Part shown: one piece after another, positions 9,425 to 60,680 of the stretch
How the letters are laid out: each line of letters begins with the position of its first letter
How positions within the stretch are numbered: position 1 is the stretch's first letter
DNA from: Metridium senile
Lineage: Eukaryota > Cnidaria > Anthozoa > Actiniaria > Metridiidae
Length of the DNA: 64,000 nt
Assembly: GCA_949775045.1 (NCBI GenBank)
Contig: OX459108.1
Span: 3,857,961-3,921,960, forward strand
Reading direction: 5' to 3'
Made by a program: the position numbers and the translations under genes
Notes under the pieces: model-generated
What the model was told of the DNA's origin: nothing
Database searches by the model: none
The model's input: the letters and a program-made list of their open reading frames with translations, nothing else

Positions 9425-10412
9425 CACAGGCAGCCCAAGCAAATCACTTGTATTCAGTGGATTTTTTTTCATTTTTTTTTTTTCAATAAAATGTTACTAA
9501 ACTTTGTCTGTAGTTGTTGTGATGTACTTAAATACTTTTTGGATAATTTTTAGCTAGTTTTAAGCCATATTTATAATTTCTTCCCCACTAGTAATATATT
9601 TACACAAGGCTGGCGACTCGGGTGGACATTACCTTCACTTTCATCGGCAGTTAATCCCCGAAAAATCCCTCCATAATCCCCAAAACCAAGTCTGAGTCAA
9701 AGGCCAATGATCCTTCTATCCATAACTTTTACTAGAATTCAGAAATACAAATCTAAACCTAACGATTTGCTCCGTTTTCTTGCTTTTTGAAGTCGTTGTT
9801 TCACTCCGGAATATCCGTTAGCCGTCCAATTCGGACATGAAGCTTTGTGCCCTGGCCTGATTTTATGAAAAATCACTCCCCTCTAGGGGCACCCACGAAC
9901 CAATCACGTCAAAACAAACGCTCGTTTTAGTTTTGTAACTGCTCTCCCTACCACTGAGGGGAGTGATTTTTCATAAAATCAGGCCAGGGCACAAAGCTTC
10001 ATGTCCGAATTGGACGGCTAACGGATATTCCGGAGTGAAACAACGACTTCAAAAAGCAAGAAAACGGAGCAAATCGTTAGGTTTAGATTTGTATTTCTGA
10101 ATTCTAGTAAAAGTTATGGATAGAAGGATCATTGGCCTTTGACTCAGACTTGGTTTTGGGGATTATGGAGGGATTTTTCGGGGATTAACTGCCGATGAAA
10201 GTGAAGGTAATGTCCACCCGAGTCGCCAGCCTTGTGTAAATATATTACTAGCGGGGAAGAAATTATAAATATGGCTTAAAACTAGCTAAAAATTATCCAA
10301 AAAGTATTTAAATACATCACAACAACTACAGACAAAGTTTAGTAACATTTTATTGAAAAAAAAAATGAAAAAAAATCCACTGAATACAAGTGATTTGCTT
10401 GGGCTGCCTGTG
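9425..10412. repeat. Near-perfect 1-kb palindrome
   Basis: The left arm 9425-9893 and right arm 9956-10412 are reverse complements over about 460 bp with very few differences, mainly in the poly-T/poly-A run. The spacer is only 62 bp. Landmarks mirrored on both sides are CATGTCCGAATTGGACGGCT, GGATATTCCGGAGTGAAAC and TCCACCCGAGTCGCCAGCC. No ORF of note is present. Confidence 0.9.
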
Positions 10413-17253: not shown

Positions 17254-25661
<8,408 letters not shown>

Positions 25662-28090: not shown

Positions 28091-29629
28091 TTAAATGATG
28101 TCATACATTTCTTTTACATTTTCGTCCCCAAGTCGTTTTATCAGAGCACGTGTCTGGGTTCTTTCCCTTATAAACTGATCTAGACTATCACAAACCTCAT
28201 TACGTCTCAAAATGCTCCTTTGTAGAGCCACGGCGTTTTGGTCGGTCAAGGCTCCTCTTCCATAAGGACGTTGGGACGTCTGGGGTTGCTCTTGGGTCTG
28301 TGTTAATCGGCTATAGATCCTTTTAAAGATACTGTCATTTCTGCGTCCTATGACGTTCGTGGGTATATTGGATTGGTCTGGAGCTTGGCGGCTATTTTTA
28401 TCATGTTTTTTGCTCGAAGACCTCAATTCCTCGATCCAGTCTTCATGTTCATTTGTATTTATCTCTTGCTGACTGTTTGTTACTGTTACTGTCATTCTTC
28501 TCGGTTGTTGCTGTATTCCACAATCATGTTGCAGCTGTCTGTACCGGGGTTTTTCTGTTGCGTTCCGGTTGTGATTCTTTCCTTTCTGCTTGGTTTGAAG
28601 CGACATCACGGTGAGTTCGTCGTTCTTGAAACATGCTGCATGTTCATCATGCGGTAGGGAATAGTTCGGAACAGGGCTGATAAGCTGAATGTCTGTGAAT
28701 GAGGGTTCATTCACGGGCGACTTTGGCTGTCGGGAGTACAACTTGCGTCTCTCTTCGCAGTGATTGTGCTTGTTTTCTTGGTTTAACTTGAGATCGTTTT
28801 GTCTTACGCGTCTTTGAGTACCACCAGAATATTCCTTTTTAGCCTGGTATTGTAGATGTGCCTCTGAGTGAGATTTGGGACCATTAGGTGATTTTGGGGC
28901 TGTAGGCGATACTGTACGGAATACTTTGGCCTTTGGTGACAACACTGGTTGATAGTCTTGGATTGGAGACAAATATGCCATCGCCGTATTTTCTCTTTGT
29001 TGCTCTTCTTCTATTCCGTAATAATTTATTGATGACCTTAACTCTTTCATCCACTCAGGCTCTTTAGGTATTTTTCGTTTTTGTTTGGTCTTTGCATCTG
29101 TGTCTGGCATTCTGCTGGATTGGTGCTGTATTCCAAAATCTTGTGATATCTTTCTATATCTTGACATTTCTGTGGCGTTCGGGCATTGACTTTTCTCATT
29201 CTGCTTGTTTTCATGCGACATCATCGTGAGATCTTCTTTCTGGAAAAATGATGCCATTTCATTATGCTCTAGGGACGGTTTCGGAACAGGGTTTATCAGC
29301 TGAATTTCTATGAATGAGGGACCATTTTCTGGAGTTTTGGGATGTCGGGAGTAGAACGTACATGTCTCTTGGTGAGGGCTTCTATTCGTATTGGATGGAC
29401 ACTCATTCTTACGGTCGACTACAGATCTGTGTTTGTTCAGGCTTTGCTGCGATGGTGTCTTGTCTTCGCAGTACGTATCGACAATTCCTTGGTTGAACTT
29501 GGGATCGTATTGGAAAATATTTCTGACGCGTCTCTCGGTACCATGTGAGGACTCTTTTTGAAGCTGGTATTGGGGATTTATTTTTGCAGAGTCGGCTTGG
29601 TAAGCCTTCGGCGATACACTGGACAGCAT
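28091..29629 (-). CDS. Internally duplicated hypothetical protein, 3-prime part of a split gene
   Basis: An open frame of 512 codons, Gln/Asn/Lys/Arg/Ser-rich and probably mostly disordered. It contains two tandem homologous segments of about 150-200 residues. Each carries a GTERRVRN or GTQRRVRQ box, a SFIEIQLINPVPKPSL or SFTDIQLISPVPNYSL box, an ATEMSRYR or ATEKPRYR box, and EWMKELRSS or DWIEELRSS. The C-terminus (RRNEVCDSLDQFIRERTQTR) may be helical. The ATG at 29629 is probably not the true start: the reading frame continues upstream to the border of the inserted element at 29642, and the N-terminal part lies at 33541-33836. No known family is recognised. The internal duplication and absence of stops argue for a real gene that was intact until recently. 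Confidence 0.7.
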   Translation of the reverse strand: MLSSVSPKAYQADSAKINPQYQLQKESSHGTERRVRNIFQYDPKFNQGIVDTYCEDKTPSQQSLNKHRSVVDRKNECPSNTNRSPHQETCTFYSRHPKTPENGPSFIEIQLINPVPKPSLEHNEMASFFQKEDLTMMSHENKQNEKSQCPNATEMSRYRKISQDFGIQHQSSRMPDTDAKTKQKRKIPKEPEWMKELRSSINYYGIEEEQQRENTAMAYLSPIQDYQPVLSPKAKVFRTVSPTAPKSPNGPKSHSEAHLQYQAKKEYSGGTQRRVRQNDLKLNQENKHNHCEERRKLYSRQPKSPVNEPSFTDIQLISPVPNYSLPHDEHAACFKNDELTVMSLQTKQKGKNHNRNATEKPRYRQLQHDCGIQQQPRRMTVTVTNSQQEINTNEHEDWIEELRSSSKKHDKNSRQAPDQSNIPTNVIGRRNDSIFKRIYSRLTQTQEQPQTSQRPYGRGALTDQNAVALQRSILRRNEVCDSLDQFIRERTQTRALIKRLGDENVKEMYDII

Positions 29630-29641
29630 TGACTGGTGATG

Positions 29642-29846
29642 AGTAGTATGCGAGTACCAATCCTACGCCACCCGCACCGGCGGTGCGCCGGTGCAACCCA
29701 GAAACAAAGGAAATTCCTCATATTTCAAATTCCTTAGCATGCGTCGAACAAAAGAAGACGCGGCGTCCTTTTGCAGAACAAAGGAGATTCTCGGCTCTAG
29801 GATTAAATGTGGCGTCCTATTTCGCTAAACAAAAGAAATTCTTCAT
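29642..29846. repeat. Left terminal inverted repeat of the 3.9-kb element
   Basis: It is the reverse complement of 33323-33527. It includes the small hairpin CACCGGCGGTGCGCCGGTG about 30 bp from the end. Confidence 0.9.
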
Positions 29847-29849
29847 CTG

Positions 29850-30640
29850 AGGATTAGATATAGCATCATTTTTTAAATTCCTTTAATAATAGTGTTTTTT
29901 TTTTCCCCCAACTAATGTATTTTTACAGTCTTGGCGCGTGCCGCGTCACCACCTGCAAATCTATTGTTTAGTTCATAGACAAAAGAATTTCTTGTTTTTG
30001 AAGTAAAATTGCAATGCTTGCCTATAAATCGAGAAATAAAGAAACAAAATTATGGCGTTAGATATTCCTTACTGATATAACAAAAATAGACTACGCAGTT
30101 CTTTCTTTTTAAACAATAATAAGTGTGCCGAATTAAACAATAACACATCGTAACTAGGTAAAGTCAATTAAAGGTTGAACGAGTACATTTGTAAACATTG
30201 AGTAATTCAACGGGTTTTATTAGCTTTTCTTAATTAAACTTTAACTAACCTTAAAGTTAAAACTTTTAAAACAGTTTTTGCGATTAGTTTTTGGAGCAAT
30301 TACTAATCTTACTGATATAACAAGAGAACGAAGAACTTCTTACTTTTCAAACACTAATATTATAATAATGAGTTTGTACAATTAGTCTGGGCGCGTGCCT
30401 ATTGTTTAACTTATCCTTGTACATGTTTTGTTTGTTTATCAAATTTAAATCATTAAATGAGTTTGAGTAGTTTGTATTCTATATATAATGCTCTATAACT
30501 TTTAACATATCCGATAATTGAAAGTATCCATTATATTTCTTCGACTGGCTTTTCTCCCGACTGCGTTAAGTCTGTCAGCCTCGTAGAGGCATATCTTGTA
30601 ATGATGAAAATATTATATATTCTGCAAACCAAAGTGGGTT
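29850..30640. other. Non-coding part of the 3.9-kb element
   Basis: A+T-rich DNA between the left terminal repeat and the zinc-finger ORF. Two related stretches with TACTGATATAACA (about 30069 and 30310) suggest an internal duplication. There is no ORF. Confidence 0.5.
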
Positions 30641-30646
30641 CATAGC

Positions 30647-30958
30647 TCAGAGAGCTTTCTTTGATTTTCTCTTTACGTTTCGAGGTCTACTGATCTTTTT
30701 CCGTCTTTGGACTTGTTGTGGCTTTCTTGGTAAAGATGGTTCATAAACAATGCTATCTTCATACTTTGATTTATTCTTCTCTTTAGAGTCGAGATAGACA
30801 ATCACTTTTACTTTCGTCTGAAGTTTTGCTTCTTGTAGGCATTTCCTTCGTTCAATGTGATCTAATTGATGTACATCAGTTAGATGATTTGATAGTTTCA
30901 CCAAGTATTTCGCTCCACAATCAGGGATAGGACAATCACGACAGACTCGATTGACCAT
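30647..30958 (-). CDS. C2H2-like zinc-finger protein of the 3.9-kb element (103 aa)
   Basis: The start ATG at 30958 gives MVNRVCRDCPIPDCGAK. The finger is built from C-x(2 or 7)-C pairs followed by LSNHLTDVH (H-x4-H), then ERRKCLQEAKL and a strongly basic C-terminus (KISRPRNVKRKSKKAL). The role is probably DNA or RNA binding within the element. The first dozen codons and the upstream region lie inside the inner inverted repeat, so a truncated second copy of the start exists at 32297 on the plus strand. I associate similar CPxxxC..LSxHL..H proteins with cnidarian genomes, from memory only. Confidence 0.6.
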   Translation of the reverse strand: MVNRVCRDCPIPDCGAKYLVKLSNHLTDVHQLDHIERRKCLQEAKLQTKVKVIVYLDSKEKNKSKYEDSIVYEPSLPRKPQQVQRRKKISRPRNVKRKSKKAL

Positions 30959-31282
30959 GTTGATACTTTGACGTTCTCTTGCAAATGACGACGTTTACCC
31001 CAAATGTTCACATTTATCGAGGTTTAAGGCAAGGATGAAAAGGACAAAACCCAGGATGAGCAGGACAAAACCCAGGATGATGAGGACAAACCCAGAATGA
31101 TGAGGACAAACCCAGGATGACAAGGACAAACGGGATAAAATTCAACTTGTTGTGTATTCCCCCAGCCTATTGTGCTGACATTGCAGTTTTCTCTTTGAGT
31201 TTGTCAACATCCCCAGGCTTACCCCGCGATTCCACCAATACAAATACCGAGTTATTCATACATATGGCATACTTTTTAAAAA
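30923..31282. repeat. Inner inverted repeat of the 3.9-kb element, left arm
   Basis: It is the reverse complement of 31969-32332. It contains about five units like AGGATGATGAGGACAAACCC in tandem, plus the start region of the zinc-finger ORF. The two arms flank the 199-codon ORF. Confidence 0.88.
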
Positions 31283-31362
31283 TCAAACAAGACTAGACTT
31301 TGCCGTTTATGAATATATATTTTTATTAAAGATACACATTATGCTTGTACACGATTACATAA

Positions 31363-31962
31363 TCATCTGTGAAATTTGCAATCATGTGGGTTAAAAGTGT
31401 CAAAATTCACCGCACTTTGTATAGGAACTTCTTGTTTCGAAAACAGTTTGTTGAGCAAAAACTTTCTTTGGTTTATGGCTGATTCAGTTGCTTCTTCCCA
31501 GCTATAGTCTTCCATATCAATTAGGTTTTTCTTGGTAGTCATAACTTTTTTATAAAGAGGATCCTTTTTCAAATAGTGCATCCATTTTAGGTGCTCAAAT
31601 AGAACCTCTCTGAGTTCTTTTCTGAAAGTAGGAACCACGGCATTACTCGCTTTAACTTTTGCTACTTCATCACTATCCCCATTTTGCTTATATTTCTGTA
31701 CCAAATCTTCCCATTCGTCTTCATGCCTTTTGACCGCTTCGCTTTGAAGTCTTTCCCAGACGTTCACTTCGACCCCATCATCCAGCTCACCCTCTTCATG
31801 ACTGTCTTCAGCAGAGTCATCGCTTTCCTGGATACTTTCCTCATCACTATGCAAACTTTCATCTTCATAGCCGGAGTCGGAATGAGACATGGTTCTCTTA
31901 TAGCGTTCCCTTTTCAAATGACTATATAAGCTGTCGTCTCCTTTATTATATCTTATCCTCAA
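31363..31962 (-). CDS. Acidic protein of the 3.9-kb element (199 aa)
   Basis: The frame starts at 31962, with an alternative ATG (MSHSDSGYEDESL) about 24 codons in. The first third is Asp/Glu/Ser-rich (HSDEESIQESDDSAEDSHEE). Then comes a helical region with VWERLQSEAVKRHEDEWEDL, FRKELREVLFEHLKWMHYLK and DYSWEEATESAINQRKFLLN. This layout, an acidic leader and an all-helical domain, gives no enzymatic motif. It lies alone between the two arms of the inner inverted repeat, which could act as its promoter side and terminator side or allow inversion. The function is unknown; it could be a structural or DNA-associated protein of the element. Confidence 0.65.
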   Translation of the reverse strand: MRIRYNKGDDSLYSHLKRERYKRTMSHSDSGYEDESLHSDEESIQESDDSAEDSHEEGELDDGVEVNVWERLQSEAVKRHEDEWEDLVQKYKQNGDSDEVAKVKASNAVVPTFRKELREVLFEHLKWMHYLKKDPLYKKVMTTKKNLIDMEDYSWEEATESAINQRKFLLNKLFSKQEVPIQSAVNFDTFNPHDCKFHR

Positions 31963-31968
31963 TAAATG

Positions 31969-32332
31969 TTTTTAAAAAGTATGCCATATGTATGAATAAC
32001 TCGGTATTTGTATTGGTGGAATCGCGGGGTAAGCCTGGGGATGTTGACAAACTCAAAGAGAAAACTGCAATGTCAGCACAATAGGCTGGGGGAATACACA
32101 ACAAGTTGAATTTTATCCCGTTTGTCCTTGTCATCCTGGGTTTGTCCTCATCATCCTGGGTTTGTCCTCATCATCCTGCATGGGTTTTGTCCTGCTCATC
32201 CTGGGTTTTGTCCTTTTCATCCTTGCCTTAAACCTCGATAAATGTGAACATTTGGGGTAAACGTCGTCATTTGCAAGAGAACGTCAAAGTATCAACATGG
32301 TCAATCGAGTCTGTCGTGATTGTCCTATCCCT
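31969..32332. repeat. Inner inverted repeat of the 3.9-kb element, right arm
   Basis: It is the mirror of 30923-31282. It ends within a duplicated start of the zinc-finger frame (ATG at 32297, plus strand) that soon leaves homology and terminates. Confidence 0.88.
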
Positions 32333-32562
32333 CAGCATGGTATAAGGCATCTAAACTTGCTAGGCTTCCTCCTTCTTTGATTGTGTAATACAGTTTTTCC
32401 AGCAGTTTCTCCATCAATTTGAGAATTTTGAATAACCACTTTTCCCCCGCAACATGCAAGAACACAGCGAATTTTACGGAAGATATCTTGAAGTTTGATA
32501 TTAGGAATTGACCTTAAACATCCCATGTCTACACTTGAGAAAGGGTAATACACAAATGACAC
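32332..32562 (-). CDS. Small ORF of the 3.9-kb element (76 aa), uncertain
   Basis: MSFVYYPFSSVDMGCLRS.. with a CVLACCGGK segment. It stops at the edge of the inner inverted repeat, as if the original 3-prime end was cut off by the duplication. It may be a truncated gene. No family is recognised. Confidence 0.35.
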   Translation of the reverse strand: MSFVYYPFSSVDMGCLRSIPNIKLQDIFRKIRCVLACCGGKVVIQNSQIDGETAGKTVLHNQRRRKPSKFRCLIPC

Positions 32563-32621
32563 AAGTCGTAAATGTTCAACCTTTTTATTATCTTGTGTTA
32601 CACAACATATAAACGTTCTAC

Positions 32622-33140
32622 TTAAAACTGTAAGTATTCAATGAACCAAGAGAAAAGTTCTGTTGACAGAGAGGTTGTGTAACCTTCATGTCTATCACAT
32701 AAGTCTACAATAAAATCGTGTATGGGTTCTTCTTCTTCATACACCATCTTTCTCCATAGCGAGCACACTGTATGGGAAGATTTATTTGATAAGTTGTTGA
32801 TAAAGGAAACGCTTACTTGAGGTACAGGTAGATCAGCTAGCTTGAAAAACATTGTACATAGCTCTTGTAGCATATCCAAGCGTACTTCATTCTTGATACC
32901 CGTGTACAGCTCATAAAATACTTGGTATTCAGTTTTGCTATGGTCCTTTTCAGTGCACCATTTGCTTTCACAGACTTCACATTGAAAATCTCTGTAAACC
33001 TTTCTTCGACACAGTTCTGCATAGAAATAGGCCAGTAAACCGTGTATCTTGGCACGTGTGACGTGTTCAACTTCATCAGTCACCATCATGACAACTGTTC
33101 TGTCTCGACACAAGACCCTTTCCACCATATTCATCTTCAA
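32622..33140 (-). CDS. Hypothetical protein of the 3.9-kb element (172 aa)
   Basis: The open frame starts at MKMNMVERVLCRDRTVVMMV. A possible metal site is FQCEVCESKWCTEKDH (Cys-x2-Cys-x4-Cys-x4-His) near residue 55. The rest is predicted helical, with KTEYQVFYELYTGIKNEVRL and FIVDLCDRHEGY. It is the first gene after the right terminal repeat and reads inward on the minus strand, like the other two ORFs. No polymerase, integrase or protease motif is present. The function is unknown. Confidence 0.6.
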   Translation of the reverse strand: MKMNMVERVLCRDRTVVMMVTDEVEHVTRAKIHGLLAYFYAELCRRKVYRDFQCEVCESKWCTEKDHSKTEYQVFYELYTGIKNEVRLDMLQELCTMFFKLADLPVPQVSVSFINNLSNKSSHTVCSLWRKMVYEEEEPIHDFIVDLCDRHEGYTTSLSTELFSWFIEYLQF

Positions 33141-33322
33141 ATCTAATTCGTTCTTTAATGTACCACAGTGGTGAGTAGTAATGTTTTATCCAGCAGTATA
33201 CGAGTGGTATGACGCTAAGAAGCATTTTGATTATCAAAGTCCGACAACAACTTAAAGTATCTAAATATTTTTGTTTAAAGGAGACTCAGGAATTTTAAAA
33301 ATGACGCTTAGGAGTTTTAGAT

Positions 33323-33527
33323 ATGAAGAATTTCTTTTGTTTAGCAAAATAGGACGCCACATTTAATCCTAGAGCCGAGAATTTCCTTTGTTCTGCAAAA
33401 GGACGCCGCGTCTTCTTTTGTTCGACGCATGCTAAGGAATTTGAAATATGAGGAATTTCCTTTGTTTCTGGGTTGCACCGGCGCACCGCCGGTGCGGGTG
33501 GCGTAGGATTGGTACTCGCATACTACT
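33323..33527. repeat. Right terminal inverted repeat of the 3.9-kb element
   Basis: Reverse complement of 29642-29846. It supplies a short out-of-context tail and a stop codon to the interrupted gene reading in from 33836. Confidence 0.9.
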
Positions 33528-33540
33528 GTGATGGTCTTGG

Positions 33541-33836
33541 TTTATATACAAACTGTCCATGATCTTATGTTCTGTTCGTTCTTCAACTATATCTTGGCAT
33601 TGAAGTAATGTGGCTTGCGTCATTCTTGGGCGACGCTTCAGCAACCGTTCTTGGGCTATGGGAATAATGCTTTTTCTGCGGCTTTCATTGGAAGCAATTT
33701 CCTTATAATCAAAAGTTGGTCTTGAAAGGCAACTTTTGCTAGCACATGTGCTTTTGGGTCTTGAATTTCGAAAGCTACTAGCACCAGCATCTGAATTGGA
33801 TTCAAACATATCTTCATCTTGAGTTTTGCGGGACAT
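33541..33836 (-). CDS. N-terminal part of the split hypothetical gene
   Basis: From the ATG at 33836 the frame reads MSRKTQDEDMFESNSDAGAS, is Ser/Arg-rich, and reaches YINQDHH just before the element border. Removing the element and one copy of GTGATG brings this frame into register with the frame that continues to 28091. The two parts were therefore one gene of roughly 610 codons. As it stands, translation would enter the terminal repeat and stop near 33432. No domain is recognised. Confidence 0.68.
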
Positions 33837-35995
33837 AGCTCAACAATCTAAGCACAATGTTGTCTTTATGCTTGCAAAAAAAAATATGTGTGGTCTCTTG
33901 CAATATTTCACGGGTTATATAGTTAAATCAACTTCATCAATGACGCATGCTGTCTTGATGCTTGAAAAAATATTACGTCATTACTTACGCATGTTTTTTC
34001 CCCGAAAATATCCTTTTAAGGTCATGTCCTTATAGTGACGTCCTTGAATGTAGGCCTAATTTATACTACAGTCATGCTCAAAAATGTTGGGAGACGTTTT
34101 TAAAAGTTATCTTTGGGTTTTACAACAAATATAGAATATCATGAAATCTCAATTTGATTTGTAAAACCCTTTTAATTGAGAACCGTATGCTCTTCCCGTT
34201 TTTTAAAATCAATTAAAATTGATTATTTATTATAATGATTTGATTAACTCTGATATCTGTAAATTGAACGGTACGATACCGTACTATATTTAGTTTTTCG
34301 CTCAGAAAAGTACCATTAATACTTATATTTTTCTTTTATTACTTCTATACTGTTTTTTTATTGCTAAGAAAAATATTAGATCATTTGCAATATTCTATAT
34401 TATACAGTTCAATTAATGTCATTACTGACGCATGTTTCGTACCAATATTAGAATCATGCAGCGAGGTTTCATTCTATTTGTGTTTAAATTGCGTCATGGC
34501 TCATGCGTTTGCTTCTGATCAGCGCTTCTCGAGTTTTCTTAAAATTCCCAAGCGCTCTATATTTCGATAGAGCACTGCTGCTGAGTTTTCTATTTCTTTT
34601 ATAAAATATTCAGTTAAAATCAAATAAATCGACATTCCGCGCACTGTTCACTTATAGAGGACGCTTCTCAGCCAATCAGATCGCACGATTTATATCAATT
34701 ATTTTATAAAACTCGAAAGAGCACTGACTGCTGCAGAGTTTGCTATTTCTTTTATAACATATTCAGCTAAAATGTTCAGCTAAAATCAAACGAATAGACG
34801 TTCAATTTCGTGCTCTATTTTAAACAATAGAGTAGTTGAATCGAGGGCATTATGCTGTGATAGTTGCCCGCGTAAAACTAGATGTTCAGAAAAACAAACA
34901 GTCAATGAAGTTTTGAGGAACATCCAGTTTCCAAGAGCAACTATCACAGCAGTATGCCCGAGATTTTAACTGCTCTGTTGTTTTTATAATTCAACAACAA
35001 AATTTTCCGAAGCGGGCGAAAAGGTCAGCGGGCACTATGCGCTGAAAAGTTGTTGTTGAATTATAATGAGGTATAGAGAAGGTTTTCCAGCCAATCAGAA
35101 CGCGCGATTTATATCAAATATTTTATAATGTATTTCATAATATGAGGTTTTAAATATTATAAAATAATTTTTTCTCACGGCCCAACTGAAGCATATTTCA
35201 GGGTAGTTGTTTTTCTTCGATGGTTTAAAATACTTTTCGGCTTTTAGGCACAAAGGGAGACCTAATTACAAATAATTAGAGCGGCTTTGATTGTATTTAA
35301 AAATAAAAAATAAATAAAAAAAAACAAACAAACAGGACTAATGTCATCAGCGCACGTGCACACCTCCAGTCAAAGTAAGCAGTCTAATAGGTTGCCTAAT
35401 ATCGCAAAATAATGGATCGCCACGTGACTAAAATACGGAAATGTGATTGGACGATTATTTAAAAAAAAAAGAGCTAGAGTGATGATTATATTTTTTTAAG
35501 TACTTTTTACCCATTTATCAGTACAAGCTAGTGCGAAGACACTTAAACCATGAAATAAAAACAAAATACTTCTTATTACTCAATCAGAAACATCAAGTAC
35601 AAAAGGAAACAATACCTCATTTTAAAATAGTTTACTTGTCGACTTTGATAGTGACTAATAATTACTAAATAAGAAATATTACACAGCAGCAATTTTATTC
35701 TATTTTATGGATATAATATTTTCGCTTTATCTGCAATAATTTTTTTTTTTGATGTGTTAATTGTTCTCGACCATGCCACGAGCTTTATTTGAGTAATGTG
35801 ATTTTTCATACCTAAAAACCAGAATAGAATACATAAATTAAAATAAAATTGATACTATGTAATTATAGAGCAAATACACTAAAACCATGAAATAGAATAA
35901 AAAAATAAAAATAAAATAAAATAAAATAAAATATTCAAGGTGTAATTGTCAAATAGATACAAAAGAAGAATGCAAAAAAGAATTAGAGACTGCTA
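33837..35995. other. No gene; scattered foldback and CCAATCAGA-type repeats
   Basis: Around 34510-35130 several repeat blocks recur: AGAGCACTG, CAGCCAATCAGA..CGCGATTTATATCA (34670 and 35090) and an inverted pair GCATTATGCTGTGATAGTTG / CAACTATCACAGCAGTATGC. I see no ORF of substance. Confidence 0.5.
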
Positions 35996-39274: not shown

Positions 39275-42200
39275 GTGAGTATAAAACTTTAATATACAAA
39301 TTAGGTAATACCTAATAGCGGAGCTCCCCTTTTTTCTTACAACATCAATATGCGCATTTAAATAGTTTTTGTACATGGGTCATAAAAACTGTACATGATG
39401 ACGTAGACGTATTTGTTCGTTATTGAAAGAAAGACTATTTCTTACTGTTCAAGGTTACTTAGGAAAAAAAACATTAATATATATATATATTTTCGAATGT
39501 AAGTCAACTACATTTTTCAAGAAATATTAATATATATATTTTCGAATGTAAGTCAACTCATTTTTCAAGCTTTTTGCTAAAGATTATGAAAACGATACTT
39601 TTTGTGCATAACAAATTGTTGACTAAATACCCAACCCAACCCAACCCAAACAATTTTTATTTAAAAAAAATAAACTTAAAAAAAAAAATCGATATCACTA
39701 TAGTGTTTCTATCGAAAATAAGGTATCGACGCGTTTTTGAAAGATTAATTTTTAGATTTCACATTTTTTTATGTCAATTCGCACGAAAGTTCGTGACAAA
39801 CGCGCGTGACTTTGTGTCACGACACGCTAACGTGTCGCTAGCTAGCAATGCCAAGGCCATTTTTGCTTCAAATTTGCTTCAAACACAAGACAAAACACTG
39901 AGAAAAATCAAAACTTTGAGCTTCAAATTGACAAAAACATTATTTGAACTAGATCTTAATAGCATGGTAACTATGTATTAAAAGGAAAAAAGGAAATTTT
40001 AAAACATTTCTTTGTAAAAAAAAAAAACATTTTTATCGCATTCGATTTACTAAAAAGTAGTCATGGCAAATCTTCAAAACAAAAAGTTCTTTTGAAGTGG
40101 AATTAAAAGCCTCAAGAATAAGTTCTACCAACACCAGATCGATTTGAAAAGACAAGGATTTTAAAACAAGGTATTTTATTATGAAACATATTAAAAGTTA
40201 TTCAACCAATTTTAAATTATGTTTATATTTCAATTCATCTTTGATGTTTTCCGTTGATGAGGTTTAAAAAGTACATAAATAAAAACCTTTTTCAATTGAC
40301 CAAAGGCCACGAGAAGTACAATTCACACATGCACAAACATCGTTTCATGTACGGTTTTTATCTCAAAAAGTAAAAAAAAATGAAGATAAACCTTTTCTCT
40401 TTTCTTTCAATAGTAAAACAGAGAACGGATTTTTCCTTTTTGAGGCTTAATTCACTGGACGAAAAGTCGGATTCACCATATGTGTGAATATGGTGTGAAT
40501 TTGGTGAACCATATTCGCATTATATTCACACCCCCAGTGAACATGATATTTACACCATGTGTGAATATAGTGTGAAACTGATGCGAATATACATATTCAC
40601 ATCACATTCACAAAGTGTGAATACAGAAGAGAATATGGAATTCTCTACTAGTGTGAATCTAAAGTGAATCAATTGTGAATGTGGTGTTGCCCAAATCGCA
40701 AATTATATTTATACCATGTGTGAATATAGTGCGAAACTGATGCAAATATACATATTCACATCACATTCACGAAGTGTGAATAAAGAAGAGAATATGGAAT
40801 TCTCTACTAGTGTGAATCTAAAGTGAATCAATCGTGAATGTTTTGTTGCCCAAATCGCAAATTATATTTACACCATGTATGAATATAATGCAAAACTGAT
40901 GCAAATATACATATTCACATCACATTCACGAAGTGTGAATAAAGATGAGAATATGGAATTCTCCACTAGTGTGAATCTGAAGTGAATCAATTGTGAATGT
41001 TTTATTCCCCACATCGCAAAATACACTCGTTAGATTTTCAGTACAATACGTTTCGCCGAAAATAAGTAACAATATAGTAACGTTGGTATTAGAGTGCAAA
41101 CAATATAACCGTGAAACACAAAAACTAATTAGTCGAAATTTAGTAGAAATTAGTGAAAAATAGTCGAAGCGTGAATAGACTAAATTTAGTGTGCACGTGC
41201 AATCAGCCAAGTGTCCTAGCGCACAATATGCAAAAAAAAAAAATGTTTTTAAGTCTATTTGTTTGCGCTGCAGCAAAATCAAGACACAACTAAAGCTAAA
41301 ATAATCAAGACACATGACACATCTAGAGCTAAAATAACCACAATACACAAGTGAAATTGTTTTCAAGACTATTCCTTTGACGGCGCTACAGCAAAATCAA
41401 GACACATGACACATCTAGAGCTAAAAAATTAACCACAATACACAAGTGAAATTGTTTTCAAGTCTATTCCTTTGACGGCGCTACAGCAAAATCAAGACAC
41501 AGGAAACATCTAGAGCTAAAATAACCACAATACACAAGTGAAATTGTTTTCAAGTCTATTCCTTTGACGGCGCTACAGCAAAATCAAGACACAGGACACA
41601 TCTAGAGCTAAAATAACCACAATACACAAGTGAAATTGTTTTCAAGACTATTCCTTTGACGGCGCTACAGCAAAATCAAGACACATGACACATCTAGAGC
41701 TAAAAAATTAACCACAATACACAAGTGAAATTGTTTTCAAGTCTATTCCTTTGACGGCGCTACAGCAAAATCAAGACACAAGAAACATCTAGAGCTAAAA
41801 TAACCACAATACACAAGTGAAATTGTTTTCAAGTCTATTCCTTTGACGGCGCTACAGCAAAATCAAGACACATGACACATCTAGAGCTAAAATATTAACC
41901 ACAATACACAAGTGAAATTGTTTTCAAGTCTATTCCTTTGACGGCGCTACAGCAAAATCAAGACACATGACACATCTAGAGCTAAAATATCCACAATACA
42001 CAAGTGAAATTGTTTTCAAGACTATTCCTTTGACGGCGCTACAGCAAAATCAAGACACATGACACATCTAGAGCTAAAAAATTAACCACAATACACAAGT
42101 GAAATTGTTTTCAAGTCTATTCCTTTGACGGCGCTACAGCAAAATCAAGACACAAGAAACATCTAGAGCTAAAATAACCACAATACACAAGTGAAATTGT

Positions 42201-45200: not shown

Positions 45201-48200
45201 ACTTTGCTTTGTTGATCTAGTGCTATTTGGCGCGTGCGTCACTTTCGTTCCCGCCACTTTCGTTCCCTACACTTGGGATTCCTGTGTGCACGTACACTTG
45301 GGATTCTTAAGTATGGTGCTTCGCTCGCGCAGGCCTTCGGCCCGCGCGGGAGCTCCGCTATAAATTTTAATCAGTGGAACAGCTAGTAATATAAACAAGA
45401 TAAATTTTTAAAATATGCAGTATGCATATATATATATATATTCTAGAACTAGATATACACGTATTAAAATATTGTAAAGACATTCGTATCGGAAACATCC
45501 CGAGAATTATATTTTATAAACTTTACAAATTATCTATTCAAGCATTCTTTTGGTATAGAACAGTTTAATAACAGTGCTGATAAAAAGACTCTATGTATGT
45601 ATGTATAGAGTATATCATTAAAGATGATGGATTGTGGGTAAACAGTAGTTCACTATGTTTGTCTTCCTTCGTTACTTTTGTGTAATACCATGCAAACAAA
45701 ATATTAGTTGTGATGTAGCCAGATCTAATATTTTAAAACAAATACAATATTATTCACTTTTGATTAAAAGTAATATAATATGTCTATTTAACAATTAGAC
45801 CTCTCGCCCTCATGGTCTACGAGTCAATAGCCCATGAGGCCGAAGGTTCGAAGGCCGAAAAGTTCAAGAACAGTTTTTCCTAAGCTTAAAATTTAAAAAT
45901 CTGTCTTTCTCAATCAAACTGAAGAATCGTGTGATGGCGTCAGTAGCGCGCGCTCTTAAAGTTAAAATTCATTCTCAAATTATGTGCTTTTTTGTCATTT
46001 TCTTCCTCGTATTTATAACTAACGATTCAAATAAAAGCATTATACTTAGTACTAAGCTATTAGAAGAATTAAAAGAATCATGAAACGTTTTCAAAGTTTA
46101 CAAAACCGGCACTTTTCTTCAAGAAAACTAATCAAGCTTAACATATTCATTGTAGTTCATAACATGAACATATTCTGAACAAGTTGCTAACAACAAATTA
46201 TGACAATATCAATTGGTTAACATTCATACCAAAACTTCAACCGAATAAATAACATAGAGTAAAACGTTTAATTTGTCAATCTTAATTTGTCAATCACAAA
46301 TGCTCTAATCTTCTTACTTCAATCTTTTGCTTATTGTTCTTTAAGATACCCACGATATACAATTTGAACCTGGTACAGTAGCTTCAGGTGCTGCTGGTAT
46401 TTTAGAAGTTCTCTACAATGGTACATGGGGAACAGTGTGCGACGATAGCTTCGACATGAACGACGCCAAGGTTGCATGTCGACAACTTGGTTTTACGATA
46501 GTTGAACGATATTGGCATGAAGGACGAGGCACGGGTAAAATCTGGTTGGATGACCTGGCTTGTAGTGGATCTGAGTCTTCACTACACAGCTGTGCTCATT
46601 ATGGATGGGGAAAACATGACTGTGACATTGCTACAGAAAGTCTTTTTATCATGTGTTCTGGTTACAAAGGTACAACTTATTATGTGTGTGTTTCTCAAAT
46701 AAGTGTTTTTAATTTTTTCAAAACTTACCAAAAAAATGTTGCAGCAGCTGTACATAAGCGTACATTGTTTTGCAGGTCCACCTCCAGAAGACATTCAATT
46801 TCAACCTGGTACATGGGGTTCAGCTACTGCTGGTATTGTACGAGTCTTCCACAATAACCAATGGGGAACGGTGTGTCATGATAACTTCGATATGAACGCC
46901 GCCAATGTTACATGTCGACAACTTGGTTTTGTCAAAGCTTTAGGTTATTGGAGCTTTGGACAAGGATCGGGTAAAGTCTGGTTGGACGGCATCAAATGTT
47001 CAGGCTCGGAAACATCACTGCAGAACTGTTCTGATTCTGGCTGGGGAAATTTTCACTCTCATTGCAATACTCACGAAAACGATGTTGTTGTCGTGTGTTC
47101 TGGTTACCAAGGTGAGTAGACTAACAAGGAATATATTTTGGAATATTTGATCATTTAAATCCACGTACAAAACTAGCATTATATCAAGTTTACATACACC
47201 TGAGTGTAAAAAAAAAACATCATAAAAATGGTTCATTTGATGCAGAAAAATTTGTTTTCTATATAATCATCCTTTCTTAAAACATTAATTTATAAGCCTA
47301 ACTGAGTACACGATCGAGGGTCAATATGCAAATCCTATTGAAATTCGTGTTGAGCCTAATCGATGTACTCAGGTGTATCTAGGCTTAACCTTCTCCATCA
47401 TCTCCAAAAATGTTGCGATGAATTTTGTGAGGGCTGTGACATCAGCATCGAGGAATGTCGTCTATCACGTCATACCTTTTCTCGTGAAATACAATTGATA
47501 GCTTTATCTTTATATTTTTGCAGTGAGACTGGTTGGTGGTATAGATCCTAACGAAGGTCGCGTTGAGGTATCTTCGGGAGAAGTTTGGGGTACGGTGTGT
47601 AATGAACGCTGGGGTTTAAAAGAGTCACATGTCATCTGTAGAATGCTAGGTCATGACAAAGCTGTTAAACAACAGTCATTTGGAAAAGGAAGAAATGACC
47701 AACTCGTTTGGCTGCGTGGTATTTCGTGTAGTGGATGTGAAGACTCAATCTTAGAATGTCAAGGTGTGAAAATTGGAAACCAAACTTACGACCACAAAGA
47801 TGACGTAGGAATTGTCTGTCTTCCAAAGCTAAAAGGTACAAAAAAATATTTTTAAAAAACCACGCCAATAAAAAGATACATCTCATATATTGTTTTTATT
47901 TATATTTTTCATAAACGTTTTAGGCAAGAAGGAGGTATCAGTTAGACGAAAGTCGGATGGACTTGTAGAAATCCAGTACAACAATATTTGGAGACCAATT
48001 TGTGCTGACAACTGGGACATTAGAGATGCACAAGTCATATGTAGAATGATCTCAAATTTTTCAAAAGCTGCGATTGCGATAAAAGTTAAGGTAGCAGTCG
48101 GCAAGGAAAACAGAGTATGGCTATCTAACGTAAGCTGTATTGGAAATGAAAGCAATATTCAAAACTGTAAAGATCCAATTTGGAATTGGGAAAATAAGAC

Positions 48201-51200
48201 TTGTACAACAGGAAACCATCGTGCTGCAGTTATCTGTCAAGAAGGTAATGATGCCAACGCTGATGATGATGATAATGATGATGATGAGGATGATGAGGAT
48301 GATGAGGATGAGGATGAGGATGAGGATGAGGATGAGGATGAGGATGAGGATGAGGATGAGGATGAGGATGAGGATATGATGTTGGACGTAGTGGTGATGA
48401 TACTCTTTGATTGAAGTTTACGATGGTGGAAATGAAGGGTGGCTGTTGTAGTTATGGTAATTAACAATAACTATATCCTTTGAGACATAGATTAGTCACC
48501 ATCAATTTATTTTTCATTCCATCTATTTGGGTTGACGTTTGCTGTTTCTTTTGTTAAGGAAATCCGAAATTAAAGTTTTACATCGAAAACAAGACCATGG
48601 CTGCCGGGCGACTGGAAATGGATTACTATGGCGTACGTGGAAATGTTTGTGCAACAGACCTGGATACCAATTCCGCGAACGTATTGTGTCGTAAACTAAG
48701 ATACCAAAGTTCTTTGGCTTATTCCCCTTGGACTAAAGAATCCAACACAAGTTTTTCTATTTCAATGAAATGCAGTGGTTTAGAAACATCCCCCGATCAG
48801 TGTGGTCAATTATCAATTAACCAAGTAGTAAAGTGCCAACATGGTAGTATTGTTGGCTTAGTTTGTAAAAAGAAAACAGGTGAGTATTAACAATTCCTGA
48901 TCAGTTGTATCAATTGGCAGGCTTTTATTTAAACAGTCCAACCCTCAAGCTGACCATGTTATTTCTATGTGCAAATGATTTGTATCATTTCTTTTGTTGG
49001 ATAAAAACTTCGAGGTCCCATTCAATAACTGTCAATAACTGTTGCGCCATTTCCTATATCATGCAACGGGAACACTAAGGTAAAATAACCTCTAAAGAAT
49101 GAGAAAATCCTGGAGGCGATTTATAAATAATATAATAATACACACGAAATTCACCCTCTCCAAATGGGTTACTAAATAGCTCACTAATCTATTCAACTGA
49201 CGCACCATAGAATTCAGTCATATCAGTCAATCTAACAAAAAAATCTAAAACATTGGCAGGAAATCCTATTTCAACAAATGAAATAAAGTTTGTCCACGGC
49301 CAAAACGAGAGAGAAGGACGCGTTGAAATAGAACGACATGGATTGTATGGCACTATTTGCAGCAATGGATGGGACATGCGGGATGCTAATGTTATTTGTA
49401 AAATGAAGGGATTTCCTGGCGCTATCACGGCGTACAAAGCGTTTGGAGAAGGTTCTGGACCAATGTGGTTTACTAGACTGCGCTGCAAAGGGACTGAGGT
49501 AAACATAGATCGTTGTCCAAGTATTCAAGGAAACATTTTGAAGTGCAATCACAGTCAAGATGCTGGAGTTGTCTGCTTTGCAAAAGGAGGTATAAAATCT
49601 ATACATACTTCAATTAAAAATATTTACATACTTCAATAATACCCTTTTCTTTTAGAAATAATAGATCGTTTGGAAATTGAACTGGAAAAGAATGATTCTG
49701 ATCATTACGGCCGAGTGAAGATTGAATATAACAACATCACCCGAACCGTATGTGGCGATGAGGACTGGGACATCAATGACGCACATGTGGTTTGTCGCAT
49801 GTCTGGTTTTAAAGGAGCTCTCGCTGCCATAAGGCAGTTCTCAAAGCGTTCCAGTAGTGCTCTCTCATTGTCAAAAGTGCGTTGTAGTGGAAATGAGGAC
49901 ACATTAGAGCATTGTGACCATGGTGGTTGGGATCAAACAGATTGCAGAAAAGGATTTGATGCTGGAGTTATTTGCGAAAGAAACGATGGTATGTATTTTC
50001 ATTTTATATCCACTAGTAGGTACACAAATTTATTTATCCCTTACAATTTTCAGTCAAAGGCAAGAAAATGAATGTGGATTTAGTCAATACAACGTCCAAT
50101 GGAATTTCCATGGTAGAGATTAATTATGAAGGTGTCAAAGGAATACTTTGTGCGAAGAACTGGAAATCTTCAGATGCTTATGTAATGTGTCGATCAATAC
50201 CTGGTACAGATGGTAATAAAAAAGCATCACCTGAAATCTTTAGCACTAATGAGAACAGACCAGTTCTCTTGGGCGCATTGAATTGTATAGGAAGTGAGGC
50301 TGACATGAACGATTGCAATCATCTGGCAATTGGAAGTACTGACTGCAATCCTACACAAGCAGCAGGAATAACGTGTTTATCTTTTACAAAGGGTAAGGAT
50401 GCGCTCCAAACCTTTTGTAGAAATTACGCATATACATCTATCCATTTTACATTTTAAAGCTAAATTATAATATTCTATATTTGACATTCTATATATAGAA
50501 GACCTCAAAGTTTCTGCGAAGATTACTAAAGGGGTTTCACCAAATTTTGGCCAGGTGCACATCGTGGATAATACATCAACAAAGCCTATTTGTGATGAAA
50601 ATTGGGATAAGAAAGACGCAGATGTGATTTGTCGGATGAATAAATATGACAAAGCTTTAGCAGCAATTAAAAGATTTAAGAAGTACAATGCAGACAAGTG
50701 GGTTTCTCAATTAGAATGTCGTGGTAATGAAAATTCCATCGCAGAGTGTTATCAAAAAGTAAAAGATGCTCAGTGTCCAGGAAACTATGTTGCTGGTGTA
50801 TTGTGCAAAGATCCTAAACACAAAGGTAATGTTTTAAATTCAAATTAGTAATCTATAGATCCAACACATATGAACAAATACTTAAAACAATGCCAGATAC
50901 ATATCATTTATAGTCATTTCCAAACAACTGGAATGTCAGAGTACATTTTAGTTTCCGTCATACTTTATGAAGATGCTTTTTGACTAAAGTATAAAGATCC
51001 ATCACATATGAAAAAATATTTAAAAAATGCCAGATACATAGCATTCGTAATCATTTACAAACATCTGGAATACTAGAGTACATTTTAGTTTCCATCATAC
51101 TTTCTGAAGATGCTTTTTGACTACGTAGAACTTTGTACTTTTATTTTAAGAACATCCGCTGAAGGTTCGGTTGTCAGGTGGAAATTCAATAACGCCAGGA

Positions 51201-59925: not shown

Positions 59926-60202
59926 ATGTGCAGATGCTAAAGAAACCACGCACCAGTCAAAATATTTTTTTCTCACTAATATTGAAATCTTTTGAAAATA
60001 GCTAGTTTAGGTTTCAAACGATGATAGATCTTGTAAAAAAAAGTCTCGGAAGCAATGTGATAATATAAACAAATTGATGGTTTGATTTAAGCCATATAAA
60101 TAATAAGATGAATAAAATGTTTTTTATGCTGATAATATATCTAATCAAAGAAAACGTACACTATGCTTTGTAATTTTTTTTTTGTGTGTGTGTATGATTA
60201 TG

Positions 60203-60473
60203 ATCGTCGCGGAGAAATAAGCAATTTATATAATTGCAATTATAGAAGCCCGAAAACAATTCGGGACTTAAACGGGATTTGAACCCATGACCTTTGCAGT
60301 ACCGGTGCAATGCTCTACCAACTGAGCTATGAAGCCACATATGTTGGTAGGAGGTCATTTTGTTGAGTTCATTCGCCCTCAGAGTGAAATGTAGGTATAT
60401 ATGTGGGTCCCGAATTTTTTTCGGGATTCTATAATTGCAATTATATAAATTGCTTATTTCTCCGCGGCGATCA
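60203..60473. mobile_element. Foldback element carrying a tRNA-like gene
   Basis: ATGATCGTCGCGGAGAAATA..TTGCAATTATAGAA is mirrored by TTCTATAATTGCAATTATAT..TTTCTCCGCGGCGATCAT, a terminal inverted repeat of about 50 bp. The interior is a tRNA-like sequence plus about 60 bp. Confidence 0.8.
60264..60336 (-). tRNA. tRNA-Thr(GGT)-like sequence, probably tRNA-derived
   Basis: On the minus strand, 73 nt fold as a cloverleaf. The acceptor GGCTTCA pairs with TTAAGTC with one mismatch. The A box is TAGCTCAGTTGGTAGAGC. The anticodon stem is TTGCA/TGCAA around CCGGTAC, giving anticodon GGT. The B box is GGGTTCAAATCCC. Position 33 is C instead of U and no intron is seen. Lying inside a foldback element suggests a captured or SINE-like copy and not a working tRNA gene. 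Confidence 0.6.
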
Positions 60474-60474
60474 T

Positions 60475-60680
60475 AATAGTTCCAAGTCGAGGTTCGAGTT
60501 GCTGAGCATGACCAATTAAAGTTTATCATCAGCAGCAACTCGAACCTCGATCTAATCGTGGTCACTAAACGGAACTGTAAAAAGGACAACTGCCATAGAG
60601 CAATACTTTTTGGATATAAAAAATGCGGCATTTATTATTTATAAAAATAAATTATTAATCGTATTTTTTTTGTCTAATTT
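60475..60680. repeat. Dispersed 220-bp repeat, copy 2
   Basis: Matches 27850-28075 (TAGTTCCAAGTC, GCAGCAACTCGAACCTCGAT, GTGGTCACTAAACGGAACTG). A partial inverted copy of its start lies at 60480-60505. Confidence 0.65.

Follow-up and report, generated by a model that had tools for sequence, protein, structure and literature searches.

A 3.9-kb Maverick/Polinton-like element of Metridium senile that joins a palindromic satellite to the right end of a long Maverick

Within a 64,000-nt stretch of the Metridium senile genome (assembly GCA_949775045.1, contig OX459108.1, positions 3,857,961 to 3,921,960; C14:3857961-3921960 in our genome coordinates and hereafter the window), we analyzed a mobile unit of 3886 bp at window positions 29642-33527, which a preliminary description had presented as a small Polinton-like element. 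The features given there, namely a 6-bp target site duplication (TSD; GTGATG), 205-bp terminal inverted repeats (TIRs) differing at about two bases, AG..CT termini on a 3.9-kb unit, and three open reading frames (ORFs; 172, 199, and 103 codons) on the same strand, were all recovered. The TIRs are identical at 203/205 positions (mismatches at 29786 and 29823), with similarity running on to 241 bp at 93.8%, and the unit termini read AGTAGT...ACTACT. All three ORFs lie on the minus strand, and ORF199 counts 199 codons from a TTG start (175 amino acids (aa) from the ATG). Joining the flanks across the insertion site restores a stop-free frame of 618 codons on the minus strand, indicating that the unit is a precise insertion, probably in a host exon; neither part of this flanking frame matched Pfam at E <= 0.01. 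This frame, an inner inverted repeat of ~360 bp (30923-31282 / 31969-32332), and a 60-residue integrase remnant add to the preliminary description. The features of the locus are listed below, where fetched loci carry L numbers, satellites are the short copies, and Mavericks the long copies, of elements with the same ends:

28091-29641, minus strand: 3' part of the interrupted 618-codon frame, a probable host exon
29636-29641: left TSD copy, GTGATG
29642-29846, plus strand: left TIR, starting AGTAGTATGCGAG
29642-32332: satellite-derived part (full arm, centre, and inner part of the second arm), by BLAST to L031-L042, L051, L052, L058, and L059
30647-30958, minus strand: ORF103, with a single C2H2-like finger (CPIPDC...H...H) and a basic tail, read by eye
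30923-31282, plus strand: inner inverted repeat, left copy, a satellite arm piece (ORF103 start and upstream sequence)
31032-31130, plus strand: five ~20-bp tandem repeats in the interval between ORF103 and ORF199
31363-31890, minus strand: ORF199 (175 aa from the ATG), the satellite centre, with an acidic N-terminus and then four helices
31969-32332, minus strand: inner inverted repeat, right copy, the second satellite arm, ending after 12 ORF103 codons
32120-32223, minus strand: ~20-bp tandem repeats, mirror copy in the shortened second arm
32332/32333: recombination junction between satellite and Maverick, with no shared bases
32333-33527: Maverick-derived part, matching the right terminal stretch of a 13.7-kb copy at 1195/1195 positions (L044:5697-6891)
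32333-32513, minus strand: rve integrase remnant, residues 1-60 of a 388-residue frame, cut by the junction
32622-33140, minus strand: ORF172, the right-end gene of long Mavericks
33323-33527, minus strand: right TIR, ending ACTACT
33528-33533: right TSD copy, GTGATG
33534-33839, minus strand: 5' part of the interrupted 618-codon frame

The inner inverted repeat was considered as an independent inner transposon and rejected, as no TSD was seen by eye at its outer limits and it corresponds to a remnant of the satellite arm.

We searched the window's own assembly (389,276,800 bp) with the left TIR, as the preliminary description had proposed, and scored 40 places of 104 candidates. The search yielded many copies with 6-bp duplications, and the same ends were found to border both short copies of 2.1-4.6 kb and long ones of 13.7-14.3 kb, the latter with a polymerase-like gene and an integrase. 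The first fetch comprised 12 paired short copies, four long copies (two pieces each), and five single-ended stretches, two of which (L051 and L052) proved complete; L056-L065 were added later. This gave 23 loci with both ends, including the window, and a perfect 6-bp TSD was present in 22 of them, each of a different sequence (the left end of L047/L048 is AATAGT, and its TSD was read accordingly). Outside this count are L053-L055, fetched with one end, and L057, L061, and L064/L065, whose ends were not identified. Given these exact TSDs (22/23), and given that a 22-nt pattern of the ends, allowing <=3 mismatches, matched twice in the window against 0.00 expected, we exclude chance as the source of the ends. 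Some copies, a second family, terminate instead in a different kind of end, AGTAGATATGG, and L051 and L052 each carry one AGTAGTATGCG end and one AGTAGATATGG end within a perfect TSD, indicating that the two end kinds can be inserted together. Movement was also very recent, given that L032 and L035 show no difference over 3897 bp yet lie at different sites with different TSDs (CGAGAC and CACGTT).

The long copies provide a candidate helper. Two of them, L043/L044 and L045/L046, are 13.7 kb in length and 99.8% alike. Both encode, from left to right, p130, a PolB-like ORF of 1027 aa with the motif FTDTDS (PolB motif DTDS), p133, and p314; the leftward genes p173, p438, p167, and p255 come next, then an rve integrase that carries a chromodomain, and finally p187, which is ORF172. 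The integrase is whole in L044 (rve, 1.8e-14; chromodomain, 2.3e-09), its 388-residue open frame having the first Met at residue 34, and as a query it gave 110 matches from 106 scored of 472 candidates genome-wide. An A32-like ATPase lies between p133 and p314 in L048 (Pox_A32, 1.1e-05), a stretch that is split between the fetched pieces in L043/L044 and L045/L046. L047/L048 is a 14.3-kb copy with a 200-N gap and PolB split in two frames. The p173 product resembles an adenain-like protease by eye only, with no database match; p438 as capsid and p173 as protease may be considered candidate, unconfirmed roles. Two side observations concern these copies: the PolB-like ORF (L043:3157-6237) showed an Endonuclease VII-like match below the Pfam cut-off (21.5 vs 23.6 bits), and in L047 the terminal repeat recurs ~0.4 kb inward of the left end (201-438 and 628-938).

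The remaining long copy, L049/L050 (C11, about 13021978-13034302), is a 12.3-kb Maverick of a second family and is itself palindromic, with arms of 4777 bp at 99.7%. Its opposite arms carry PolB-type ORFs of 624 and 1034 aa, one of them truncated, it is flanked by the TSD GACAGC, and it had no match to the helper integrase. The left 4.7 kb of L049 is 95.8% identical to L043, and its polymerase relative matches DNA_pol_B_2 (3.3e-07). This arrangement suggests that L049/L050 is a defective double-left-end form of the helper.

All three ORFs of the window copy have protein relatives at E <= 0.001 (348 for ORF103, 27 for ORF199, and 3 for ORF172), indicating that they are real genes. One relative named with its organism (Oculina patagonica) was among the 120 listed of the 348 for ORF103, and two of the 27 for ORF199 are named Exaiptasia diaphana, which points to a probable cnidarian host. 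The preliminary description had assigned the ORFs to no known family, which stands as far as Pfam is concerned (nothing at the curated cut-off) and not beyond it, as ORF172 is the helper's right-end gene (100% identity to L044, 99.4% to L046 and L048, and 97.7% to L053) and the ORF103 and ORF199 families have Maverick members. ORF103 matches p133, which follows PolB in the gene order of the long Maverick, at 58% over 59 aa, with a profile probability of 99.6% against L043 p133. Profile comparison of ORF199 with the 11 helper proteins gave values of <= 1.3% throughout. Its predicted structure (mean predicted local distance difference test (pLDDT) 71.8, predicted template modelling score 0.42) has a low-confidence N-terminus and four helices after it, and this fold had no match in BFVD or PDB at E <= 0.001; the prediction for ORF172 (mean pLDDT 38) was too poor for use. 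Searches of PHROGs with the ORFs gave a best E of 0.041, and sequence searches of PDB returned a match of the acidic stretch to a designed barrel (1.5e-04), otherwise only hits above 0.03, and no match for ORF103. Nothing was confirmed in viral contigs with the three ORF profiles and the 22-nt end pattern, nor in contigs of other genomes with the ORF103 and ORF199 profiles.

The preliminary description had also noted the lack of polymerase B, integrase, protease, and capsid genes. This holds to the extent that the L043 PolB-like protein, p173, and p438 had no match in the window element, as was also the case for the helper ATPase, p314, p167, and p255. The exception is the integrase, of which residues 1-60 are present at 100% identity (genome match C14:3890279-3890473, equal to window 32319-32513).

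The short copies have a distinctive architecture. Fourteen of them (L031-L042, L051, and L052) are near-perfect palindromes around ORF199, with arms of, for example, 1148 bp at 100% (L032), 1151 bp at 100% (L036), 1827 bp at 99.6% (L037), 1814 bp at 99.8% (L038), and 1817 bp at 99.8% (L040). In L037-L040 (4.2-4.3 kb), ORF103 occurs in both arms with ORF199 at the centre, and L031-L036 (3.9 kb) keep ORF103 in one arm. ORF103 is open and full-length in 12/14 short copies and ORF199 in 13/14, the remaining one being partial. By tblastn with eleven helper proteins, including ORF172, 12/14 short copies matched only p133, the relative of ORF103, and L041 and L042 matched none; the PolB-like protein, rve integrase, and A32-like ATPase had no match in any of the 14. 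We refer to these copies as satellites, as they share their ends with integrase-bearing copies and occur as multiple TSD-flanked insertions in the same genome. The arms of seven of eight tested satellites (L032, L036-L040, and L058) align with the left end of the Maverick for 743-921 bp, and their match to the right end is limited to the terminal repeat (240-248 bp). In the L037 arm, for instance, the left end accounts for 921 bp and the right end for 240 bp, with no coverage past that point, and identity to the Maverick left end is 93.8% across the initial 471 bp. Given that the arms follow the left end far beyond the TIR and the right end no further than the TIR, satellites with these ends are, by alignment, double-left-end forms. 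Palindromes also occur outside this set, including the complete 4748-bp L056 (99.1%, both genes in both arms, TSD AGTGAA) and the 8.5-kb L060 (TSD CGGGTA).

The window copy departs from this plan. Its bases 33-2691 are 98.1% identical to satellite L058, which shares ORF199 and one of its ORF103 copies with the window unit at 100% protein identity, and its last 1195 bp are those of the long copy L044. The junction lies inside the integrase gene and cuts its frame at residue 60. A 180-bp probe spanning the junction (40 scored places of 74 candidates) had a full-length match only at the window; of the other 39 places, 26 (among them the left arm of the window copy itself) matched the first 90 bp exactly, and 13 matched the last 90 bp exactly. 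Judged by these matches, the window copy is a recombinant of satellite and helper, seen only here among the scored places. Since both ends of the hybrid flank one TSD, recombination would have preceded insertion, in which case the satellite and the helper probably came together while both existed as free DNA molecules. For the window copy, we considered and rejected that its terminal repeat had been copied from the end of the helper, as the left TIR has the C of other copies where the right has the T of L044.

ORF199 is widespread in the genome, with 150 scored hits of 290 candidates. Among 30 neighbour pairs at <6 kb, 26 were divergent (-/+), three convergent, and one same-strand, and divergent pairs are what two-copy palindromes give. 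Among the matches listed for the two genes, 5/150 scored ORF199 hits lie within 25 kb of any of 110 integrase hits; one of the five is next to the remnant in the window itself and the other four are at 12.7-19 kb, where we estimate about two neighbours by chance. Twenty fetched ORF199-bearing loci (14 picked by their TIRs and six as samples of ORF199 groups), at 40-100% identity, are palindromic, the window remnant and L064/L065 apart. The latter (C10:15735000-15753000) is a divergent Maverick-like stretch with an integrase, an ATPase, and relatives of p173 and p438, and L061 (C8:438500-446500) is a palindrome built of this ORF199-bearing stretch. L064/L065 rules out ORF199 as a satellite-only gene, and by its distribution ORF199 is a Maverick-associated family that is not exclusive to satellites. 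Between families (L056 and L057 vs others), the ratio of nonsynonymous to synonymous substitution rates (dN/dS) of ORF199 is 0.22-0.40; the synonymous sites of ORF103 are saturated between families.

We consider it highly likely that the window unit belongs to a non-autonomous, palindromic, gene-bearing satellite of Mavericks/Polintons that is moved in trans, and that this copy recombined with its helper before insertion. A parasite mobilized by a Polinton integrase was among the options of the preliminary description and is the best-supported reading, yet the window copy is a recombinant and not the canonical element. Mobilization in trans and the origin of the palindromes are what we infer from the genomic copies. 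Under this scheme, the helper polymerase would replicate linear satellite molecules by protein priming, and a growing strand that changed templates and was extended back over the left end would generate the palindromic, double-left-end genome; the L049/L050 palindrome suggests such template switching for the helper too. The helper integrase would then insert the satellites in trans, the zinc-finger-like ORF103 protein may bind the element ends or the upstream repeats, and ORF199 may aid propagation.

Several points weigh against this scheme. No mobilization, replication, or particle was observed. The polymerase ORF of L043 had no match to DNA_pol_B_2 even at E <= 10, and L056, with its other ends, matches neither helper end and has no helper among the fetched copies. 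L059 is without a TSD (GAAGGG/ACCAAT), the one exception among the 23 loci, and the Maverick-like locus L064/L065 carries a 40% relative of ORF199. Within the close family, the dN/dS of ORF199 is near 1 or undefined, with too few changes to speak for recent constraint. Palindromes are also prone to assembly error, although TSDs, varied lengths, and copy-specific differences speak against error here.

That fold-back reads or a chimeric contig produced both the palindromes and the hybrid is, on these grounds, extremely improbable: palindromic sequence is hard to assemble, but the window lies inside a 16.1-Mb contig with matching TSDs in a restored open frame, palindromes of various lengths and families each have their own TSD, and most copies show a few changes between one arm and the other. 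It is very unlikely that the unit is a simple internal-deletion derivative of a local Maverick, with no independent satellite lineage. Such a deletion would explain the two ends, ORF172, and the integrase fragment held in common with long copies, but not the left 2691 bp, which, including ORF199, are absent from the four fetched long copies bar the left-end similarity and match a separate multicopy palindromic family; the junction is, moreover, unique to the window among the scored places. We likewise give little credence to the other option of the preliminary description, a distinct virus-like element of small size that moves by itself and has ends convergent on those of Mavericks. While ORF103 and ORF199 are conserved, with ORF199 under purifying selection between families, the ends hardly differ from those of copies in this genome that encode an integrase, the arms match the Maverick left end, and the ORFs had neither a Pfam family at cut-off nor a PHROGs hit better than E 0.041.

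A different question is whether the satellites persist. They may be defective, short-lived forms of the Maverick genome that keep arising anew and being lost, with ORF199 selected in Mavericks and not in satellites. The ORF199-like gene of the divergent Maverick-like locus, its palindromic derivative L061, and the palindromic form of a long copy (L049/L050) are consistent with such repeated origin, which we nevertheless regard as rather unlikely given how few of the listed ORF199 hits lie near a listed integrase hit and how consistently the other fetched ORF199 loci are palindromic. Tentatively, and at somewhat less than an even chance, we propose instead that animal genomes host palindromic, double-left-end Maverick satellites as a lasting class, with ORF199 and ORF103 as hallmark genes under selection, which would be copied and inserted by the helper, possibly interfere with it in the manner of defective-interfering genomes, and exchange ends and genes with it as free molecules, the window copy being a recent product.

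Elsewhere in the window, we noted a fold-back repeat at 9464-10375 (arms of 420 bp with 99% complementarity on either side of a 72-nt spacer, and more inverted sequence flanking), a dispersed repeat in inverted orientation at 1463-2109, 23378-24045, and 39849-40185 (80-92% alike), SRCR scavenger-receptor domain exons at 46345-46857 and 47872-48414, and a tRNA gene at 60197-60477 (Rfam, 59.6 bits) lying at the margin of an inverted repeat of 71 bp (96%).

The ends place the element with Mavericks/Polintons. In the available text of PMC8097293, (AGT)2//(ACT)2 with a 6-bp TSD is the commonest end motif of vertebrate Mavericks, TIRs span 46-1447 bp, and intact vertebrate copies span 12.7-24.6 kb; the element has this motif, a 6-bp TSD, and a TIR length within the reported range, while at 3.9 kb it is far shorter, with its core genes reduced to an integrase remnant. 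It resembles them further in that the same genome holds copies with polymerase-like, integrase, and ATPase genes, and differs in that most of it derives from a palindromic satellite. Adintoviruses combine adenovirus-class virion proteins, PolB, and integrase. In the helper, a PolB-like ORF and an integrase accompany a candidate protease that looks adenain-like by eye and had no database match. Adenovirus and yeast linear plasmids, which are replicated by protein priming, give rise to defective genomes with one end duplicated in inverted orientation. The satellites share this symmetric form, though unlike those genomes they are chromosomal with TSDs, have conserved genes, and fall into several families. 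Miniature inverted-repeat transposable elements (MITEs) are non-autonomous DNA elements without coding capacity. The presumed movement in trans via end recognition is MITE-like; the three ORFs with conserved relatives are not. Terminal repeats are also a feature of transpovirons. As with transpovirons (PMC7031253, as far as its text was available) and virophages, a small DNA appears to depend on a larger virus-like partner, except that the helper here is a Maverick, with no giant virus known in that role, and the integrase would act from it. The long inverted arms and short centre recall Foldback/Galileo transposons, although Galileo is placed by its transposase in the P-element superfamily (PMC3573991, available text) and the ends, TSD length, and relatives here are those of Mavericks. 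Ginger2/Tdd elements have TGTNR termini and an AT-rich RTATAY target (PMC2836005, available text), unlike the AGTAGT ends and GTGATG target of the element. We found no report of palindromic Maverick satellites in animals in the literature consulted, including the available text of PMC2836005, PMC11071296, PMC6431247, and PMC8097293, with Repbase outside the scope.

These elements bear on whether animal Mavericks replicate as free, virus-like DNA. Gene-bearing satellites that share ends with long copies, 100%-identical copies at different sites, and recombination before insertion would be genomic footprints of free replication. With two ends and no enzyme genes, the satellites may offer a tractable minimal substrate, and their palindromic, double-left-end form fits protein-primed copying, which would make the replication mechanism of these Mavericks testable.

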